Below the pieces are notes generated by a model. It saw only the letters and a list, made by a program, of their open reading frames with translations, searched no databases and was not told the origin of the DNA. Positions 10,503-31,159 of a DNA stretch of 33,997 bases are shown piece by piece. Position 1 is the stretch's first letter; each line of letters opens with the position of its first letter. The stretch comes from Thermoplasmata archaeon (lineage in GTDB: Archaea; Thermoplasmatota; Thermoplasmata; Thermoplasmatales; Thermoplasmataceae), in contig JAKAAT010000016.1 in the NCBI GenBank assembly GCA_021802205.1, forward strand, positions 1 to 33,997. Direction: 5' to 3'. The translations under genes and the position numbers were made by a program.

Positions 10503-12074
10503 TTATTTTATAAATCTGAAAAGCCTGTCATAGTTTCCGTTGTGTTCATTGTATGCCAGGCGCTTTGCCATGTATCTTAATGTGCTAAAGCGTTCCGGTA
10601 TTACAGATATTATATACCCCATTTCCTCCTGGCTTATCAGGTGAAATACCTTGATTTCTACTAGATAGATCAAAAGCCCGGCAAGTATATATATGAAAAT
10701 ATTTATCATTGAATAGGAGAATAAGCCCTGTATTGTAAATATTATGCCGAACATAATTATGGCAGAAATCCATATCCTTATTACTCTGGAAATATCATAA
10801 TTATTTACAGAAAACTTTCTGGCGTAATAATAAACTATGCTAAAATTAACTGCATTCATTGAAGAATAAGCAATTGCAGCGCCTATAATATTAAATCTGG
10901 GTATGAGTATAACAGACAGAACAATATTGGATGCCAGTGCAAAGCCGGAAGAATAAAGGAATATTCTGGTTTTTCTGATACTGGAGATTCCTGATGCAAG
11001 AACTGTTGTACCGATAAAAATAGATGTTATGAACATTATTATAATGAGCGGGATATAAGCTATTGTATAAGCTGAACCTGCAAACTCATAGAGTATTATT
11101 CTCGAAAGTGCAGCTATGCCAAGTGCTGCAGGTATGTAAATAAGTGAGACAATATTTAGCAGAATCCTGATACTTTTCCTGAAACCCTCTTTATTGTCCA
11201 GTGAAAAGAATGAGGAAAGTTTTGGAACCAGGAGGTTTGAAACAGGCACTACAAGGAATGTAGCAGCAGATGCTATTATCAGGGCAAAATTATAAACCCC
11301 TAGATATGAAAGGTTAATAAAATAAGAAACAACTATTCTGTCAATATATGTGGCGCTGGTTCCCATTATTGATGAAAAAAATAATGGAATAGAATAGTAT
11401 ACAAGATTGCGGTATGGTTCTTTGACAGTTTTTGACTGCAACCCGCTGAGCCTGTTATACACCTTAAAAACAAAAATCATGAAAAGCATGGCACTTATAA
11501 TATTAATTGTTGCAAGCCCGGCTATTAAGTATACAGATTTCCCCGTAATAAAAAGCATCGAAAGCGGGAAGAAATATGTAAAAATGTTTATGAAAATATA
11601 AATCAGTGAATATTTTTTATACTGATTTAATCCAAGCAGCATGGAACCTGATACATTGATCATCACAGAACCAGCTATTGCAATTCCAATAAGCTTTATT
11701 GAAAGTACATAGGCACTACTGTGGAAAAATAATATTGCTATTTCACCTGAAGAGAAATACATAAAGCTAAAAGCCGCAAGTGCTAATAGTATTGAAAATG
11801 CAATAGTTTGTTTCATTAGCTTCATTACAGCGCTATGGTTTTCCCGTGCAATATGGTATGAAAGGTAATGCTGTACACCGTTCGAAAGCCCGAACACAAA
11901 TACAACGGCCATTATGTTCATTATAGCATACAGCAGGGATATTGAACCCACTACGGAAACAGGAAGGAGATGTGCTATGAAAAAATAAAACAGGCTGGAA
12001 GAAATAAACATAGAGGCAACTGCTGAATACTGAAATGTGACGCCAGAACTAAAAGATTCAGTTATATTACCCAA
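10503..12074 (-). CDS. Polysaccharide/oligosaccharide flippase (Wzx-like, MATE-fold)
   Basis: 523 residues with about 14 hydrophobic helices, the layout of the polysaccharide biosynthesis/Wzx branch of the MOP superfamily. It would flip a lipid-linked glycan across the membrane for S-layer or membrane-protein glycosylation. Conserved features are the early VTFQYSAVASMF segment, GLSNGVQHYLSYHIAREN after helix 2, and NLVYYSIPLFFSSIMGTSATYIDRIVVSYF in the middle. The start is a TTG at 12072-12074, the only start that keeps the conserved N-terminus; TTTTTATTTAG at 12093-12103, centred 24 bases upstream, fits a leaderless transcript. A 12-base palindrome abuts this box. The GT2 gene follows on the same strand. 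Confidence 0.8.
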   Translation of the reverse strand: MGNITESFSSGVTFQYSAVASMFISSSLFYFFIAHLLPVSVVGSISLLYAIMNIMAVVFVFGLSNGVQHYLSYHIARENHSAVMKLMKQTIAFSILLALAAFSFMYFSSGEIAILFFHSSAYVLSIKLIGIAIAGSVMINVSGSMLLGLNQYKKYSLIYIFINIFTYFFPLSMLFITGKSVYLIAGLATINIISAMLFMIFVFKVYNRLSGLQSKTVKEPYRNLVYYSIPLFFSSIMGTSATYIDRIVVSYFINLSYLGVYNFALIIASAATFLVVPVSNLLVPKLSSFFSLDNKEGFRKSIRILLNIVSLIYIPAALGIAALSRIILYEFAGSAYTIAYIPLIIIMFITSIFIGTTVLASGISSIRKTRIFLYSSGFALASNIVLSVILIPRFNIIGAAIAYSSMNAVNFSIVYYYARKFSVNNYDISRVIRIWISAIIMFGIIFTIQGLFSYSMINIFIYILAGLLIYLVEIKVFHLISQEEMGYIISVIPERFSTLRYMAKRLAYNEHNGNYDRLFRFIK

Positions 12075-12429: not shown

Positions 12430-14448
12430 ATGAAATTTGAGTGGATGCCATTCCGAATAAAAAACATATTTAAAGATGGAAAGACTGTAAATTACCACAA
12501 CATCCTTATTTTATTATCCATTATATTTGCTATTTTCTTTTCATTTTATTCTATATTAAAGGCATATACACTTAATGCTTATGCATGGGACCTGGGCTTA
12601 TATTCACAGGCGTTTTATTCTTCTATGCACGGGCAATTATTCTATTCAAACCTGCTTGGAGAGAGTTACCTGGCAGAACATTTCTCGCCATTTATGTTTG
12701 CTCTACTCGGCGTTTTTTACATATATCCGAATCCATACATATTGCTTATTATTCAGGCGGTATTCTTAAGTTTCGCGACAATTCCACTTTACTATATCTC
12801 TTTGCATATTTTTTCCAGGATAAAGGAAAAATACCCTGAAAACATAAAAAATCCTTCATTTTATTCATTTATAATAGCAAGTGCCTTTCTACTTTCACCC
12901 TTAACAGAAAGCCCGATTTATTTTGATTTCCATCTAATGATATTTCTCCCATTCTTTTATTTTATGGCAATTTATTTTTACATTAAAAACAGGATGGCAT
13001 GGAATATTGTTTTTCTTGCCCTGATAGTAAGCCTTCATGCCTCCTTTGTTTTTATTGTAGTAATGACATTAATAATGGAAATGATGATATCCCGGTATTA
13101 TTTCAAAGAATCCGGTGAGCGGACAAAAAAAATGGCATACCTGTTTATCACATCACTTATAGTTTTACTGATCTATTATACTGTAGCAGGGTATCTCAAA
13201 GGAGACATAGCACATAGCCAGAGTATTTTGCTTTTCGCAAGTGGAGCTACGGATTCTGCATCGAAGAGCATCACTGGCCTTGTTTTAACATTTTTTCTCC
13301 ATCCATACAGATTCATGACCTATATTATCGCCAATTACCAGATTAAGCTCCTCTTCCTGGTTCTTGCATTTCTGGCCGTGGATTTTGCATTTTACCGTTT
13401 CCCTATTGGTTTAATCCCGGCTATTCCATATCTTGTTTATGCCATGACCTCCTCATACATACCTTATTATTTTATAGGATACCAGTACTCCATGATGTTT
13501 ATACCTATGATATTTGTCGCTGCCGTATTTGGGATATCTAAAATGATGGAATTTAAGCCTACCCCTTCAATTAAGACTAAACGGGCATACAGAAATTTAA
13601 AAAATACCATGGTAGTTATAGCTATATTTGCAATTGCAGCGTTTATAGTGGTGTCACCCATATCACCTGTATCTCTGGAACCTTCAGGCATCCATAATAT
13701 TGTAAATGATTCAACAGGATATTCTGCACAACGGAACCACCTTGTATATTCACTGGAAAATAATATAAGTATGAATTCGTCCCTTGTAACCGGAAATAAC
13801 ATTTACCCGTTATTTTATAAAGATTTAAACGCAACAGCGTTTCCGTACAATAATATTTCATCGCCATCTGTGCATTTTAAGTATCTAATTGCAGATTTAA
13901 ATGATAGCCAGACCTACATTGAAAATGCTTATAACATATCACTAGCAAATCTTGCATCGGATTATATGAATAGTGGTTCCTATGGCATACTTGCTGAGGG
14001 TTACGGTGTGATAGCACTTGAACTCCATTATACAGGAAAACCATTAATATTTAACCCATTAAATATTTCCTATAGTTCAAAGGAATTTGACCATAATAAC
14101 GGTAAGGTCTATGGCCCGATACCGGATAAAAACATGTCCAGTTTTCAAGAATTAGAAAATCTGGGGGCAGATGTTTTTTCCGGCAACACCACCTATCTTT
14201 TGCCCGGGAATTACAGCATATCTGTGTATTTAAACAGCAGCTATAAAATACCTGCATCCGGGATTAATATCACTATTCTCGACAATGGAAGGGTTTCTCT
14301 ATATACGATAAATTCCAGCTCATACAGATTAAATGGTGAAACTTTAACATTCAATGTGAACAGCACAGAGATATATACTGGAGTTACTTACGTATTCACC
14401 GGCGTTCCTTCCATAAATGGAATGTCAATAATGCAGAATTATGTATAA
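12430..14448 (+). CDS. DUF2079 membrane protein, GT-C-like, with a sequon-rich external domain
   Basis: 672 residues. Residues about 20-420 are a multi-pass membrane domain (about 10-12 helices) with DUF2079 hallmarks: YAWDLGLYSQAFYSSMHGQL near 36-55, then SYLAEHFSPFMF and YFDFHLMIFLP. The acidic/His motifs in the first external loop resemble GT-C glycosyltransferases that use polyprenyl-phosphate sugars, but no activity is established for DUF2079. The last 230 residues are predicted to lie outside the cell and contain about 15 Asn-X-Ser/Thr sequons. It is divergent from the flippase and GT2 genes and convergent with the next gene (16-base gap). A role in surface glycosylation is inferred from context. 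Confidence 0.75.
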   Translation: MKFEWMPFRIKNIFKDGKTVNYHNILILLSIIFAIFFSFYSILKAYTLNAYAWDLGLYSQAFYSSMHGQLFYSNLLGESYLAEHFSPFMFALLGVFYIYPNPYILLIIQAVFLSFATIPLYYISLHIFSRIKEKYPENIKNPSFYSFIIASAFLLSPLTESPIYFDFHLMIFLPFFYFMAIYFYIKNRMAWNIVFLALIVSLHASFVFIVVMTLIMEMMISRYYFKESGERTKKMAYLFITSLIVLLIYYTVAGYLKGDIAHSQSILLFASGATDSASKSITGLVLTFFLHPYRFMTYIIANYQIKLLFLVLAFLAVDFAFYRFPIGLIPAIPYLVYAMTSSYIPYYFIGYQYSMMFIPMIFVAAVFGISKMMEFKPTPSIKTKRAYRNLKNTMVVIAIFAIAAFIVVSPISPVSLEPSGIHNIVNDSTGYSAQRNHLVYSLENNISMNSSLVTGNNIYPLFYKDLNATAFPYNNISSPSVHFKYLIADLNDSQTYIENAYNISLANLASDYMNSGSYGILAEGYGVIALELHYTGKPLIFNPLNISYSSKEFDHNNGKVYGPIPDKNMSSFQELENLGADVFSGNTTYLLPGNYSISVYLNSSYKIPASGINITILDNGRVSLYTINSSSYRLNGETLTFNVNSTEIYTGVTYVFTGVPSINGMSIMQNYV

Positions 14449-25331: not shown

Positions 25332-26285
25332 TTACTGAATATTTTCTGGATAGTTGAATAACAGTTCAAAATTGTCTAAATCTCCATAGAATTCCAGAGT
25401 AACCCATTCAAAATTTTTTAAATCAATTTCAGTATCCACTATGAGCTGAAAATATTCTTTTGCCATGAATTCTGGAACGATAAAATTTAAAAACAACTTA
25501 TCATCACTTTCATACATAAATGTGAAATTTGAGGTTATATTATTCTTTCTGGTATTTGATGCAAACAAAAGCAATATACTTTCATCTGTGCTGGTTTCAT
25601 ATATGTGGTCAACGCCTGATATAACATTAATGCCTTCAACTTCACCCAGATTACTATCAGAATAAAGGATAATTCGGAATTTTCCACCTTTGGGGATATT
25701 GTCTACATACTGAATTACTGTATTAGTGCCTTTCAATACTTTAATTGTCCGGTACTGCGAGAATTCAGACATAGGAAGGCTTATGGTGATACATTTAAGT
25801 GGAATCCCCATATTCTTCATAAAATCATAAAAGCCCATGGATGGCTTCAAGGTTAGTTCTTCAATGTTTGCCTGCATATAGTTGTATTTGCTCAACAAAT
25901 TAGAAAAATCTGTTTCAGAGTTTGTATGCATAAAACCTTTTAATTTCATTTTGCCAGCTTCAATACCAGCATAGCTGATTACCAGTCCATTTATACTATC
26001 AAGGTCTCCTAAAAATCCTGATAAGTAAGGGTCTTGAATTTTTTCACTGTAAAAATAATAAGGCCCCCTCTCCTCTATATCAGCGAGTTGAAGAAATGGT
26101 TTTAAGGCTGTAATATCATCTGACTTCGGGATAAAAACATTAAAAAAGAAATCATGGCCATCCATTACAAGGCTGCCAGCACCATTATACCCGGTTGCAC
26201 GGAACAATGCTATCGGCCGGGAGTTAAAATTTATAGAAATATCAAAGTATTTTGAGAGCTTTAAATCAAAATTTACCGGTTTCAT
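25332..26285 (-). CDS. Unknown protein next to a KaiC/cellulose-synthase-like pair
   Basis: 317 residues, soluble: no signal peptide, no membrane helix. Composition is aromatic and acidic with alternating hydrophobic strands, suggesting a mostly beta protein. Motif-like segments are GPYYFYSEK near 75, LKPSMGFYDFMKNMGIPLKC near 147-166, and an acidic end, FYGDLDNFELLFNYPENIQ. The middle part loosely recalls the sensory half of archaeal bacterio-opsin-activator-type regulators, but there is no helix-turn-helix. It follows the cellulose-synthase-like gene on the same strand after 119 bases that hold TATA-like sequences, so it may be read from its own promoter. No function can be assigned. Confidence 0.65.
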   Translation of the reverse strand: MKPVNFDLKLSKYFDISINFNSRPIALFRATGYNGAGSLVMDGHDFFFNVFIPKSDDITALKPFLQLADIEERGPYYFYSEKIQDPYLSGFLGDLDSINGLVISYAGIEAGKMKLKGFMHTNSETDFSNLLSKYNYMQANIEELTLKPSMGFYDFMKNMGIPLKCITISLPMSEFSQYRTIKVLKGTNTVIQYVDNIPKGGKFRIILYSDSNLGEVEGINVISGVDHIYETSTDESILLLFASNTRKNNITSNFTFMYESDDKLFLNFIVPEFMAKEYFQLIVDTEIDLKNFEWVTLEFYGDLDNFELLFNYPENIQ

Positions 26286-26325
26286 TAATTTCTATAATAT
26301 ATAAATCTATAAAAATATTCTTTTA

Positions 26326-26412
26326 ATGGCTAAATCAGCAGCCTTAAAATTGCTTGACCGTAAAAACGCTTCTGGAATTTCTTCTCAATTAAATGAATAT
26401 AAACCTACATAG
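26326..26412 (+). CDS. Possible 28-residue leaderless microprotein
   Basis: A plus-strand ORF, ATG to TAG, begins MAKSAALKLLDRKNASGISS and ends QLNEYKPT. It sits in the gap between the unknown protein and the glycosyltransferase, overlapping the latter's stop by eight bases on the other strand. ATATATAAAT near 26297-26306 lies about 25 bases before the ATG, the leaderless spacing seen for real genes here. It is too short to be sure. Confidence 0.3.
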   Translation: MAKSAALKLLDRKNASGISSQLNEYKPT

Positions 26413-27895
26413 AATTTTTAAAGGCAGGGTCATCCATTGATGATGCACGCGGGGTTTTATTTAACCAGAATATGGGCATGAGAAGTGTGAACTGAAAAAA
26501 CGCCCAGAATGCAGTAATATATGAAAAAGTGTTGTGCTGTAAAATAAGATAAATTGCAGCAAGAGGCAGGAGGATTATAATTGTGATCTGTGGCCAGAAA
26601 CGGTACAGGGGAATTTTTCCGCCGGTTCTGGCTGTGGTGAATGGTTTGGATTTTTTCAGTAACGCACTGATTGAAGTAGAAATGCTCAGTGGGAATACCA
26701 GTAGATTTGCGGCCATATTATAGAAGACAAACCTTAATTGTGCCTTTTTAGATACCTGAGAAAGGGTAAATGTTGTCATGAGAAGTATAGTATAGGGCAA
26801 CCAGGCAAAAAGATAAAGAAGATTGTTTATTGTCAGAACCCGTATTCCAACAATTTCAAGTATCGGAGAAAGTAGAAAAATTAGATAAAACCAGCCAAAG
26901 ATATACCATGTTGATGTTGCAAACCAGTCTAATTTCTGTTTCGGCGAGAACTTTCTGCTTAAAAGGATTTTTTTGACAATTTTTGGCATTAGAGACAGTG
27001 AACCATACATCCATCTCCATTGCTGATTAATGTATCCCTGCATTGTTACCGGAGCCCGGCCAAACACTAACTTTTTATTGTAATATATGCCGGTCCATCC
27101 ATTTATGGCCATGTTAACAGATGTGGCTATATCTTCAACTATGTTATTCTCATCGAAATAACCTACTGACTTCAATGCATCTAGATTATACACTACATTT
27201 GTGCCACAGGAGAATAATGTGCCTACTACACTTTTACCTTCCGTGAGTATCTCATAAAATATGAATTGCTGGGCCTGTGCTATCTCTGCAAGTGTACTTG
27301 AATCTGTATTTGAATATACCTGTGGAACCTGGACAAACCCTATTTTTGTATCCTTTGCCAGCAAAGCTGTAGCCTCGCGTAGAAAATCAGGAGCCGGTGT
27401 CTGATCTATATCTATTACTGCAGCATATGGCACTTCGAGGGTTTTAAGGACATCATTCAATGCACCGGCCTTGTATCCCCGTCTATTCTCACGGTGTATA
27501 TATTTCATCCCCAGTTTCCGGCATAAATCTATTATAGGAGCAGAATCGCCACGCGTTGAATCATCAAGGACATATATAGTTGAGTCTTCTCCTGCATTGG
27601 AATAAATGGCTATTAGATTTGTAATTACCATTTCCTCTTCTTCATTGAAAATGGGTACAAGGACAGCAACTTTGCCACGGAGCCCTGGCACATAAGAATC
27701 ATGTATTGTATCTACATATTCAGTAGCACTCCGGTGGAAAGATATAAAGTATGTTACACTCTGAATTCCAAAAAACACGCTTGCAAGCCAGAACCACGCG
27801 GTAAATATATAATCAAAAGTAGTGCCATTCTTTAAAACCACAGCCGAATACAAAGCGGAAGTAATACCGATGATTATGAAAACTATAGAAAACAT
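26405..27895 (-). CDS. Cellulose-synthase-like processive glycosyltransferase (GT2)
   Basis: 496 residues. Two N-terminal helices (about 1-20 and 30-52), a cytoplasmic GT-A domain, then four or five C-terminal helices: the BcsA-like layout without a PilZ domain. The full processive GT2 set is present: VLDD (Asp111/112), DID (Asp162, Asp164), the VED catalytic site (Asp255) and QQWRW (Gln291, Arg294, Trp295). It should polymerise and export a beta-linked polysaccharide, probably an exopolysaccharide; the sugar is unknown. No BcsB-like partner is visible, as expected for a cell without an outer membrane. It starts 43 bases after the KaiC-like gene on the same strand, so the two are probably co-transcribed. 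Confidence 0.88.
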   Translation of the reverse strand: MFSIVFIIIGITSALYSAVVLKNGTTFDYIFTAWFWLASVFFGIQSVTYFISFHRSATEYVDTIHDSYVPGLRGKVAVLVPIFNEEEEMVITNLIAIYSNAGEDSTIYVLDDSTRGDSAPIIDLCRKLGMKYIHRENRRGYKAGALNDVLKTLEVPYAAVIDIDQTPAPDFLREATALLAKDTKIGFVQVPQVYSNTDSSTLAEIAQAQQFIFYEILTEGKSVVGTLFSCGTNVVYNLDALKSVGYFDENNIVEDIATSVNMAINGWTGIYYNKKLVFGRAPVTMQGYINQQWRWMYGSLSLMPKIVKKILLSRKFSPKQKLDWFATSTWYIFGWFYLIFLLSPILEIVGIRVLTINNLLYLFAWLPYTILLMTTFTLSQVSKKAQLRFVFYNMAANLLVFPLSISTSISALLKKSKPFTTARTGGKIPLYRFWPQITIIILLPLAAIYLILQHNTFSYITAFWAFFQFTLLMPIFWLNKTPRASSMDDPAFKNSM

Positions 27896-27938
27896 AGTCA
27901 GTATATTTACAAAAATTACAGTTCGTCTGCCCAGATGA

Positions 27939-29165
27939 TCACCTTATACTTCTAAATAGGCTGCCATCTGAAGACTGATTTTCTGATGAATTGCCTTCAA
28001 TATTTTCCTGATTTGTTTGTGTTACTTCCGGTTCTGGCATTTTAAGTTTGCTCAAAGGCATTATGCCGTTTGCGGTAATTTTAAAGTTAAATGGGCTTGG
28101 ATCGAAGGTAGTGCCCCTCATTTTAATTATGCTTCCTGTTCTGGTACCTATATCATCCTGTGATCTATATTCAAGTTTTATAATGCCTGTGGCGTAATAT
28201 TCTTCAATGCCGAAAATACTTAAATTGCTATTTCTCAAACCGCTTGTGATTAATATTGTGACTCCCTTGATCGCCATACTATTTAAAAGGAGGTTGACAA
28301 AATCATCATCAGGTATAATGAGGAGCGTAATCGGGTCTATGACAACACGTTTAATATCCCTGGAAATAATAATTTTCTTCAGTTCTGTGACTAATTTTGT
28401 GATAAATTTTCTGGAGTCTGCTTTTCCCTGGGATATATCAGATTTCATTGACCTTATCTGGTCTGAAATTTCCATTACCTCTATTTGTTTATTTTTATAT
28501 GCCTCTGCAAATCCAATATTCATAGTGCGTATATTATCAATAAACTGGTCAGGGAACGTATCAGTAAGTATCATCAACCCCTTTTCGCCTATACTGGCAC
28601 CATATGAGAGAAAGATGCTTGAAAGTGTGGTTTTTCCCACACCAGTTTTTCCAGATATCATATACACATACCCTGGCCGGAGCCCTCCGGATAATTTCGC
28701 ATCGAGGATAGGAATTCCAAATTTCGCCCGTAAGGCATCCGGTGTTGTGACTTCTCTTGGATCCGATACTATAATACTGTAAATGTTACACATTTTTTTT
28801 ACGTACTCGCCCAGTTCGCTTTCACTTATTAAAATTTTTTTTGTGATACCTGCATCCGTAGCCTGGGAATTAAAAATCATAATATCATTCGTTGTGATAT
28901 CTGAATGTGCAAGCTTTACAGCTATGATATCCTTACCTGAAGCAATTATATAATCAAATTTATAACTTAATCCTGATGCACCATAGACTTCCATTCCTGC
29001 AGATACCTTAACTTTGTGTATATCAAATTGAAATTTTTGCAAGGCAATTTGCACCAGGATATCATCATCCAGTTTTACCAATATTTGTGCTATATCAAAT
29101 AGGGATATAAATTTTTTTAAAAAACATAGATAAATATCATTAAATAGCCCTGTATTTTCAAACAA
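27939..29165 (-). CDS. KaiC-like RecA-fold ATPase with N-terminal nuclease-like domain
   Basis: 408 residues in three parts. Residues 25-135 look like a PD-(D/E)xK-type fold (LVKLDDDILVQIALQKF, then YKFDYIIASGKDIIAVKLAH); Asp71 and Lys84 fit the site, but the usual acidic residue before Lys is Ala82, so it is probably not a nuclease. Residues 145-375 are a KaiC-like ATPase: SGKTGVGKTT is the Walker A (171-180) and RVVIDP with Asp277 the Walker B. The last 35 residues are Asn/Gln/Ser-rich and probably disordered. Translation starts at a TTG (29163-29165); a TATATAAAC box near 29195-29203 fits a short leader. Archaeal KaiC-like proteins act as ATP-dependent signalling or assembly factors (for example ArlH). 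Linkage to the next gene suggests control of polysaccharide synthesis. Confidence 0.8.
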   Translation of the reverse strand: MFENTGLFNDIYLCFLKKFISLFDIAQILVKLDDDILVQIALQKFQFDIHKVKVSAGMEVYGASGLSYKFDYIIASGKDIIAVKLAHSDITTNDIMIFNSQATDAGITKKILISESELGEYVKKMCNIYSIIVSDPREVTTPDALRAKFGIPILDAKLSGGLRPGYVYMISGKTGVGKTTLSSIFLSYGASIGEKGLMILTDTFPDQFIDNIRTMNIGFAEAYKNKQIEVMEISDQIRSMKSDISQGKADSRKFITKLVTELKKIIISRDIKRVVIDPITLLIIPDDDFVNLLLNSMAIKGVTILITSGLRNSNLSIFGIEEYYATGIIKLEYRSQDDIGTRTGSIIKMRGTTFDPSPFNFKITANGIMPLSKLKMPEPEVTQTNQENIEGNSSENQSSDGSLFRSIR

Positions 29166-29567: not shown

Positions 29568-29743
29568 TCTCTATAATTTCTTTTAATACAGAAACTGCAT
29601 TATGCACGGAAACAGGCATAGGGCATTTACACTATGATACAGTGTGCCATATAAGCCTATAACTAATACCAGAAACATGAACTAAATTTTATAATTGGCA
29701 GGAATTAAATAACAATCATTGACTATTATAGGAAAAGCAAAAA

Positions 29744-29752
29744 ATAGATATA
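29744..29752 (+). promoter_or_regulatory. TATA box of the ferredoxin-geranylgeranyl reductase operon
   Basis: ATAGATATA centred about 25 bases upstream of ATG 29773. This spacing favours ATG 29773 over the in-frame TTG at 29719 as the ferredoxin start. Confidence 0.45.
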
Positions 29753-29772
29753 GGTATGTAGCTTTTACGCTT

Positions 29773-29982
29773 ATGGAAGTGAAAGTTAAGAGCGAGATGG
29801 ATGTGGACAGAGGGCTTTGCGACTATTGCGGAGCCTGCGTTGGAATGTGCCCCACAGACGCGATTAATTTAGATGAGACCGTAATAGCTATAAATGAGGA
29901 TAAATGCATAAAATGCGAATTTTGTGTAATTGGATGCCCTACAGGGGCAATATCTGCGGAGTGGTTCCATGCTAAACTATGA
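29773..29982 (+). CDS. 2[4Fe-4S] ferredoxin, likely electron donor to geranylgeranyl reductase
   Basis: 69 residues from the preferred ATG. Two cluster-binding motifs are clear: CDYCGACVGMCP and CIKCEFCVIGCP, each CxxCxxCxxxCP, separated by about 27 residues. It is a small dicluster ferredoxin acting in the cytoplasm. Its last 14 bases overlap the start of the geranylgeranyl reductase gene, so the two are translated together. In Methanosarcina acetivorans a ferredoxin encoded beside the reductase supplies its electrons, which supports the same job here. The longer frame from TTG 29719 adds 18 basic, unconserved-looking residues and is unlikely. Confidence 0.9.
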   Translation: MEVKVKSEMDVDRGLCDYCGACVGMCPTDAINLDETVIAINEDKCIKCEFCVIGCPTGAISAEWFHAKL

Positions 29983-31159
29983 TGTTCTTGTAATAGGTGC
30001 AGGTCCAGCAGGAAGTTCTGCTGCAAGATATGCATCAAGATATGGATTGAAAACGTTGCTTGTTGAAAAAAGGCCAGATATAGGATCACCGGTAAGATGT
30101 GGTGAAGGAATTTCAAAAGCATGGATGCCAGAAGTCGATATAAAGCCCGAAGCACACTGGATATCAGACGAAGTCAAAGGAGCACGTATATATGGCCCGT
30201 CGGAAAAAAAGCCTATTATGCTTACCGCCGAGAGTGCAGGGAATGAGGTTGGATTTGTTGTTGAGAGAGATAAATTTGACAAGCATATTGCCACACTTGC
30301 AGCAACTGAAGGAGCAGATATATGGATAAAATCTCCTGCTATGTCAGTAATAAAAGAAGGGAACAGAGTTGTTGGCGCAAAGATAAGGCACAACGGGGAA
30401 GAAGTTGAAGTACGTGCAAAAATGGTAATAGCAGCAGATGGATTTGAAAGTGAATTCTCAAGGTGGGCTGGATTAAAATCGCCTATTTTGAAGAAGAATG
30501 ATATAATATCTGCACTTGAGTACAGAATGGAAAACGTTGATTCTAATGAAGATTTCACGGACTTCTATCTTGGCTCTATAGCGCCAGCAGGATACCTCTG
30601 GGTATTTCCAAAAGGCCCGCATGAAGCTAATGTTGGAATAGGTGTAACAATAACAATGATGAAAGACAGGCTTGATGTTAAAAACTATCTTGATTCCTGG
30701 ATTAAATCACATCCAGCATATAGCAAGGGCAGAATAATCCAGCAGATAAGTGGTGGAGTTTCAGTTAATAAGGTAAAGGATAAGATGAGCCTTCCAGGTC
30801 TTCTTGCAATAGGAGATGCAGCAAGGCTTATAGATCCCATTACCGGTGGCGGTATAGCCAACGGAATGATATCCGGAAAGTTTGCAGCCCAGGTCTCAAA
30901 GAAAGCTATTGATGAAAATGATTTTTCAGAAGAAATGATGAAGAATTATGATCTCATGGTGAAGGACAAATTCGAGAGAAAACATCTGAGAAACTGGTTT
31001 GCAAAGGAAAAATTGGGTACACTTTCTGATGAAACACTGGACAAACTTGTTGACGTTGTTGCTGACGTGAAAATGACAAATATATCTGTTGAAGAAATAT
31101 TGAAAGGAGTCCAGTTAAAATATCCGGAACTTGTTTCACAGCTGGAAGACCTGATTTAA
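29969..31159 (+). CDS. Digeranylgeranylglycerophospholipid reductase (geranylgeranyl reductase)
   Basis: 396 residues from the ATG at 29969. An FAD enzyme that saturates the geranylgeranyl chains of archaeal ether lipids. The FAD-binding motif VIGAGPAGSSAARY is at residues 8-21, the family motif PAGYLWVFPKG lies near the middle and GDAARLIDPITGGGIANGM later on; the length fits the Thermoplasma acidophilum enzyme of known structure. The C-terminal helical part is EEILKGVQLKYPELVSQL. GGAG lies eight bases before the ATG, inside the ferredoxin gene. The 409-residue reading from TTG 29930 would add residues that overlap the ferredoxin cluster region in another frame and is rejected. Confidence 0.92.
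   Translation: MLNYDVLVIGAGPAGSSAARYASRYGLKTLLVEKRPDIGSPVRCGEGISKAWMPEVDIKPEAHWISDEVKGARIYGPSEKKPIMLTAESAGNEVGFVVERDKFDKHIATLAATEGADIWIKSPAMSVIKEGNRVVGAKIRHNGEEVEVRAKMVIAADGFESEFSRWAGLKSPILKKNDIISALEYRMENVDSNEDFTDFYLGSIAPAGYLWVFPKGPHEANVGIGVTITMMKDRLDVKNYLDSWIKSHPAYSKGRIIQQISGGVSVNKVKDKMSLPGLLAIGDAARLIDPITGGGIANGMISGKFAAQVSKKAIDENDFSEEMMKNYDLMVKDKFERKHLRNWFAKEKLGTLSDETLDKLVDVVADVKMTNISVEEILKGVQLKYPELVSQLEDLI

Follow-up and report, generated by a model that had tools for sequence, protein, structure and literature searches.

A KaiC-family ATPase gene paired with a BcsA-like membrane glycosyltransferase gene in Ferroplasma and other Thermoplasmata

Little is settled about how archaea regulate surface polysaccharide output without cyclic di-GMP (c-di-GMP), and for most archaeal KaiC-like proteins no target has been assigned. 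A locus that encodes a KaiC relative next to a putative polysaccharide synthase bears on both questions, and raises one of its own: does the ATPase act on the enzyme? The locus lies in a 33,997-nucleotide (nt) stretch of DNA (contig C61, hereafter the window) of an archaeal genome that is 84.6% complete and 1.75 Mb in size. Three minus-strand open reading frames (ORFs), which an initial annotation had proposed from the sequence alone and which are real, encode, in order of transcription, a KaiC-family ATPase, a BcsA-like membrane glycosyltransferase of family 2 (GT2), and a Ta1207-family protein. Judged by sequence, the host is a Ferroplasma, a wall-less acidophile, because Ferroplasma acidarmanus Fer1 has an orthologous locus in which flanking genes and gene order are the same; the KaiC proteins of the two loci are 87% identical.

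The KaiC–GT2 pair is a conserved module whose linkage goes beyond chance, since it recurs across relatives. Within a draw of 390 genomes from the phylum, 30 relatives of the window GT2 reach E≤1e-90, all of them in the class Thermoplasmata, and adjacency was counted on the 29 that are complete, one fragment being left out. A KaiC-domain gene lies directly upstream on the same strand in 21 of the 29, including all 16 GT2s of one pair type (type A) and all five of a second, divergent type (type B). In type B, KaiC no longer has Walker A wherever the sequence covers that part. In one genome (G190), KaiC is located two genes upstream of GT2, with a V4R-domain protein between them (L157:2489-3319) that may sense a small molecule for this system. 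Linked pairs also occur in two Thermoplasmata families beyond that of the window, and in G097 and G111 (family f14, outside the phylum-draw matches) a 696-amino-acid (aa) KaiC protein is encoded directly upstream of a GT2. The initial annotation had made its proposal depend on whether the genes are neighbors in related genomes; for KaiC and GT2 they strongly are, across several genera and for both of the divergent pair types. The spacing of 43 nt that it reported between the two genes (27896..27938, minus strand) is correct, and at the same place 4-nt overlaps recur in many relatives.

The two genes are also gained and lost together. Between the same flanks, G006 and G007 carry Ta1207-KaiC-GT2-Ta1207, while G004 and Fer1 have just the two Ta1207 genes, separated by 391 nt, and KaiC and GT2 are thus present or absent as a unit between conserved flanks. 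Decay is joint as well: the type-B pair of Fer1 (L084:8338-11327) consists of two pseudogenes, with a stop at about codon 45 of its KaiC and stops plus an insert in its GT2, and the G004 pair is intact. Within the window's family, 11 genomes have both genes, one has KaiC only, two have GT2 only, and 23 have neither (Fisher p=1e-6, a value that ignores shared ancestry). The KaiC and GT2 distances correlate, with a Mantel r of 0.82 for type A (p at its floor of 1e-4) and 0.94 for all pairs, which likewise ignore shared ancestry. Several copies per genome, patchy presence, and the excision-like difference between flanks could also point to a mobile or defense unit, the linkage then resulting from selfish transfer and not from work at the cell surface. 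We regard this as very improbable: PADLOC gave no meaningful match (the best, at 0.001, was to part of the ATPase region), and no integrase was recognized among the neighboring genes in the window.

What the pair might do depends first on the enzyme. The GT2 (26405..27895, minus strand; 496 aa) was assigned from motifs, family models, and hydropathy. It has every processive GT2 motif that the initial annotation had listed (DD111-112, DID162-164, VED253-255, and QQWRW291-295), and simple hydropathy gives two N-terminal transmembrane helices, a cytosolic GT domain, and several C-terminal transmembrane helices. With the D,D,D,QxxRW motif set and the C-terminal transmembrane bundle complete, the enzyme is predicted to be processive. 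Its closest solved relatives are BcsA cellulose synthases (4hg6 matched at 2e-26), and no PilZ domain was found in the protein with Pfam, again as first annotated. The best NCBIfam models are CelA (3e-42) and PgaC (8e-22), with scores far under both cut-offs, and the bacterial cellulose synthase BcsA model TIGR03030 gives 144 bits against a cut-off of 699. By alignment, FTTARTGG (26618..26641, minus strand) occupies the position of the FxVTxK gating loop; the form F-x-T-A-R-T-G is found there in all type-A GT2s, and an F-x-V-T-P-K pattern in type B and distant relatives.

The low CelA and PgaC scores and the altered gating loop, together with the lack of a cell wall in Ferroplasma (PMC4408177), would also suit an enzyme that makes no free polysaccharide and, regulated by KaiC, adds sugars to a protein glycan carrier or to a membrane lipid (forming a lipoglycan head group). 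We think this unlikely, given the processive motifs with QxxRW, the C-terminal transmembrane bundle, the cellulose synthases as best solved relatives, and lectin staining of F. acidiphilum biofilms, from which extracellular polymeric substances containing glucose and mannose are reported (PMC4408177). Synthesis of a surface glycan is the reading that we prefer. The GT2s of family f5 (L064:7783-9735 and L066:9518-11491), which have no KaiC neighbor, are extended at the C terminus by about 150 aa, a stretch that appears ferritin-like by eye.

The upstream protein is, as initially annotated, a KaiC-like ATPase: it matches PF06745 with E=6e-39 and 134 bits against a curated cut-off of 26.6, and a fold search with the predicted model ranks KaiC structures first among PDB entries (best E 6e-15). 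The start first given, TTG 29165 (a 408-aa ORF, whose residue numbers we keep), is probably wrong. The gene probably starts at the inner TTG 29081 (27939..29081, minus strand), giving 380 aa, because orthologues are 380 aa long, the first 28 residues of the longer ORF show no conservation and no confident modelling (residues 1-30 mostly have a predicted local distance difference test score, pLDDT, below 50), and a TATA-like TTTATATC lies 22 nt ahead.

Within the KaiC/RecA ATPase domain (residues 148-371; 28053..28724, minus strand), Walker A is intact (GKTGVGKTT, residues 172-180; 28626-28652), as is the Walker B residue D277, and the protein is expected on sequence grounds to bind ATP. The KaiC-type pair of glutamates after Walker A aligns with D202-T203, of which D202 is invariant in relatives; since the pair is replaced by an invariant aspartate and another residue, ATP hydrolysis may be slow or absent. 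Its loss does not disqualify the protein from the KaiC superfamily, as the family model does not demand the two glutamates. More specific models fit poorly. The circadian, double-domain KaiC model TIGR02655 gives 39 bits against a cut-off of 546, the window protein being single-domain, the ArlH model NF052589 gives 36 bits against 215, and BcsE/GIL families have no match to the protein in Pfam or NCBIfam. A TackOD1 domain considered in the KaiC proteins of family f15 was a weak match, with no genome in the class above the family cut-off, and was dropped.

Two further parts of the protein flank the ATPase domain. The N-terminal domain (residues 29-142; 28740..29081, minus strand) had been described as an inactive PD-(D/E)xK-like domain, which is plausible: in the predicted model the order of elements fits the alpha-beta-beta-beta-alpha-beta core of that fold, and in alignments the catalytic (D/E)xK is absent, with AVK, AIK, AVL, and the like at its position, so that no relative keeps ExK. 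The fold itself is unproven, because the family searches give only non-significant hints (DUF1829 at 0.004 and Mrr_cat at 0.055); a profile of the domain had no significant match in the PDB. The domain is a probable adaptor. The C-terminal tail (residues 374-408; 27942..28046, minus strand) was annotated as disordered, has pLDDT<50 in the predicted model, and ends in a short conserved motif, SLFRSIR here and DIFRNIR or SIFKRVEA elsewhere, that is kept also in relatives without GT2. One GT2 (L079:15474-17147) has a long C-terminal extension ending in DDELFTRFK, which resembles the KaiC tail motif DNNDLFKEFKG and is perhaps a shared docking peptide.

The third gene (25332..26285, minus strand) encodes the 317-residue protein that the initial annotation could place in no family. 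It belongs to the Ta1207 family (PF19020; E=2.6e-33, 115.7 bits against a cut-off of 26.3), and its model, with a pLDDT of 88, matches the Ta1207 crystal structure PDB 5m86 (E=3.7e-15, TM-score 0.72), an entry that lists 10 chains sharing a single sequence. Ta1207 has expanded in the archaeal family of the window, whose genomes carry up to 14 copies. In Ferroplasma-type cassettes the KaiC–GT2 pair is flanked by two different Ta1207 paralogues, and the window retains the downstream type alone: its protein is mostly 41–57% identical to that type (28% in G026) and about 20% to the upstream type. A TATA-like box seen by eye about 22–30 nt ahead of the Ta1207 ATG suggests that this gene has its own promoter and so need not be co-transcribed with the pair. 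Homology between KaiC and Ta1207 was tested, and none was found. Ta1207 genes adjoin KaiC also where GT2 is absent, in family f3, and their part in the system is looser than the tie between KaiC and GT2. Of the three-gene system first proposed, the KaiC–GT2 core is thus strengthened, and the third gene is its looser member.

If KaiC controls the synthase, it would do so in an organism from which the bacterial switch is apparently missing. The c-di-GMP route looks unavailable in Ferroplasma, since a search that detected its bacterial controls turned up neither a GGDEF nor a PilZ family in ten Ferroplasma genomes. The initial annotation had suggested that KaiC could take the place of the PilZ/c-di-GMP switch. 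The conserved linkage, the lack of GGDEF and PilZ in those ten genomes, and the precedents of ArlH, BcsE, and the REC fusions of Methanobacteriaceae speak for this, while functional coupling is something that we infer, as we do physical contact between KaiC and GT2, which of the two controls the other, what polymer is made, and any role of Ta1207.

In the model that we favor, the module consists of two genes, for a KaiC-family ATPase and for a BcsA- or hyaluronan synthase-like membrane GT2, and in most cases has one or two Ta1207-family proteins beside it. The GT2 would most likely polymerize a surface glycan at the cytosolic side and export it through its own membrane channel. ATP-bound KaiC would most likely form a RecA-type ring or oligomer and act on GT2 by direct contact, assembly, or gating, replacing PilZ and c-di-GMP, and its dead nuclease-like N-terminal domain and conserved C-terminal tail would serve as docking parts. 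By analogy with ArlH in the archaellum, we consider it fairly probable that KaiC is an ATP-dependent switch or scaffold on GT2. The results suggest that archaea control surface-sugar production with a KaiC relative and not with the bacterial c-di-GMP switch.

Several observations weigh against this model. Seven of the 29 GT2s lack a KaiC link, namely those of two f5 genomes, which carry GT2 alone, four of genus g6, and one GT2 of G256. One genome that is 80% complete (G001) has GT2 with no KaiC found, and another (G003) has an intact KaiC next to a GT2 remnant, so loss of GT2 does not immediately remove KaiC. In genus g6, and partly in f14, the KaiC slot holds small proteins without detectable KaiC similarity. 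The Fisher and Mantel values carry the dependence on ancestry given above, and gene linkage by itself cannot separate regulation from a shared pathway. Finally, in family f3, KaiC sits with Ta1207 and no GT2; therefore KaiC has at least one other job, wider than one enzyme.

The f3 loci, where the same KaiC family lies by Ta1207 genes and giant PKD/Ig-like proteins, and the f15 KaiC members that occur also without GT2, allow a different account, in which the pair is genuine and KaiC makes no contact with the synthase. Its target would instead be expression or a different component of the cell surface; Ta1207 would be its chief partner, and GT2 just one among several outputs. We hold this account to be doubtful in view of the specific tie between KaiC and GT2, visible in the 4-nt overlaps, the KaiC partner of all type-A GT2s, joint presence and absence, and joint decay. 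The f3 neighborhoods are distinctive in themselves: at L054, L055, L057, L086, and L088, KaiC and a divergent Ta1207 pair lie by giant proteins, the longest reaching about 2,700 aa, and one 860-aa neighbor in this family has PKD/Ig-like domains.

Neither of two sets of candidates was counted as KaiC. The small slot proteins of g6 and f14 reached 0.1–0.3% probability in profile-profile comparison, and c60 of G058 and G049 is a P-loop NTPase of which the P-loop region alone aligns (E 8e-4, 25% probability). Upstream of GT2 in G182 there is an IS605-like element, composed of a recombinase and a TnpB-like ORF (L159:4893-6540), at the place where the close relative G235 has a small slot protein.

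A broader proposal, which we put forward tentatively as possible rather than probable, is that in Thermoplasmata KaiC-family proteins, active or degenerate, bind BcsA-like synthases directly and control them allosterically. Glycan export would then be switched by the ATP state of a KaiC ring, free of c-di-GMP and in parallel to BcsE and PilZ, and the small slot proteins elsewhere would be eroded forms of this fold. Since the pair is conserved in the cultured Ferroplasma acidarmanus and Acidiplasma aeolicum, it offers a concrete KaiC target and makes both of the opening questions testable.

Around the locus, the window otherwise carries genes of ordinary metabolism and transport. A Wzx/MATE-like polysaccharide exporter and a DUF2079 membrane protein (10503-12074 and 12430-14448) are encoded some 12 kb away from the pair. 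At 29719-31159, a small ORF encoding a ferredoxin shares bases with the start of the gene for a digeranylgeranylglycerophospholipid reductase, likely an electron-donor pair; the start of the reductase may be near 29970.

We found no report of a KaiC–GT2 pair in the literature, a check that did not take in the 2017 survey of archaeal KaiC proteins by Makarova (mBio), and the novelty of the pair is for that reason provisional. Its components can nevertheless be set beside known systems. The third protein of the window is a member of the Ta1207 family (PF19020; PDB 5m86) by profile and fold, as a distant paralogue. The GT2 shares the D,D,D,QxxRW motifs and membrane architecture of the BcsA, PgaC, and hyaluronan-type enzymes, and differs from them in lacking PilZ, in its altered type-A gating loop, and in scores far under the family cut-offs. 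An archaeal BcsA-like glycosyltransferase tied to a signalling domain is known from Methanobacteriaceae (MTH_548), where a REC domain is fused to it (PMC5847659); the partner there is a receiver domain within a fusion, whereas here it is a KaiC ATPase in a gene pair.

ArlH is an archaeal KaiC relative that binds ATP without hydrolysis and acts on a membrane machine through its oligomer state (PMC8978795). Like the window KaiC, it has the KaiC-family RecA fold and is encoded alongside its membrane-machine partner, and slow or no hydrolysis is plausible also for the window protein, which lacks the glutamate pair. The partner of ArlH, however, is a motor ATPase and not a glycosyltransferase, and the window KaiC has an extra N-terminal domain and tail. 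The nearest bacterial parallel to the KaiC–GT2 pair is, by analogy, Escherichia coli BcsE. Prediction gives its N-terminal domain a RecA/KaiC-like fold, and the protein is encoded together with the BcsA cellulose synthase, which it serves (PMC7439463). Unlike the window KaiC, BcsE is degenerate, has REC-GGDEF domains, and senses c-di-GMP; the likeness is one of proposed function and predicted fold. If direct control by KaiC is true, a KaiC/RecA-fold partner would stand beside a BcsA-type synthase in both domains of life.

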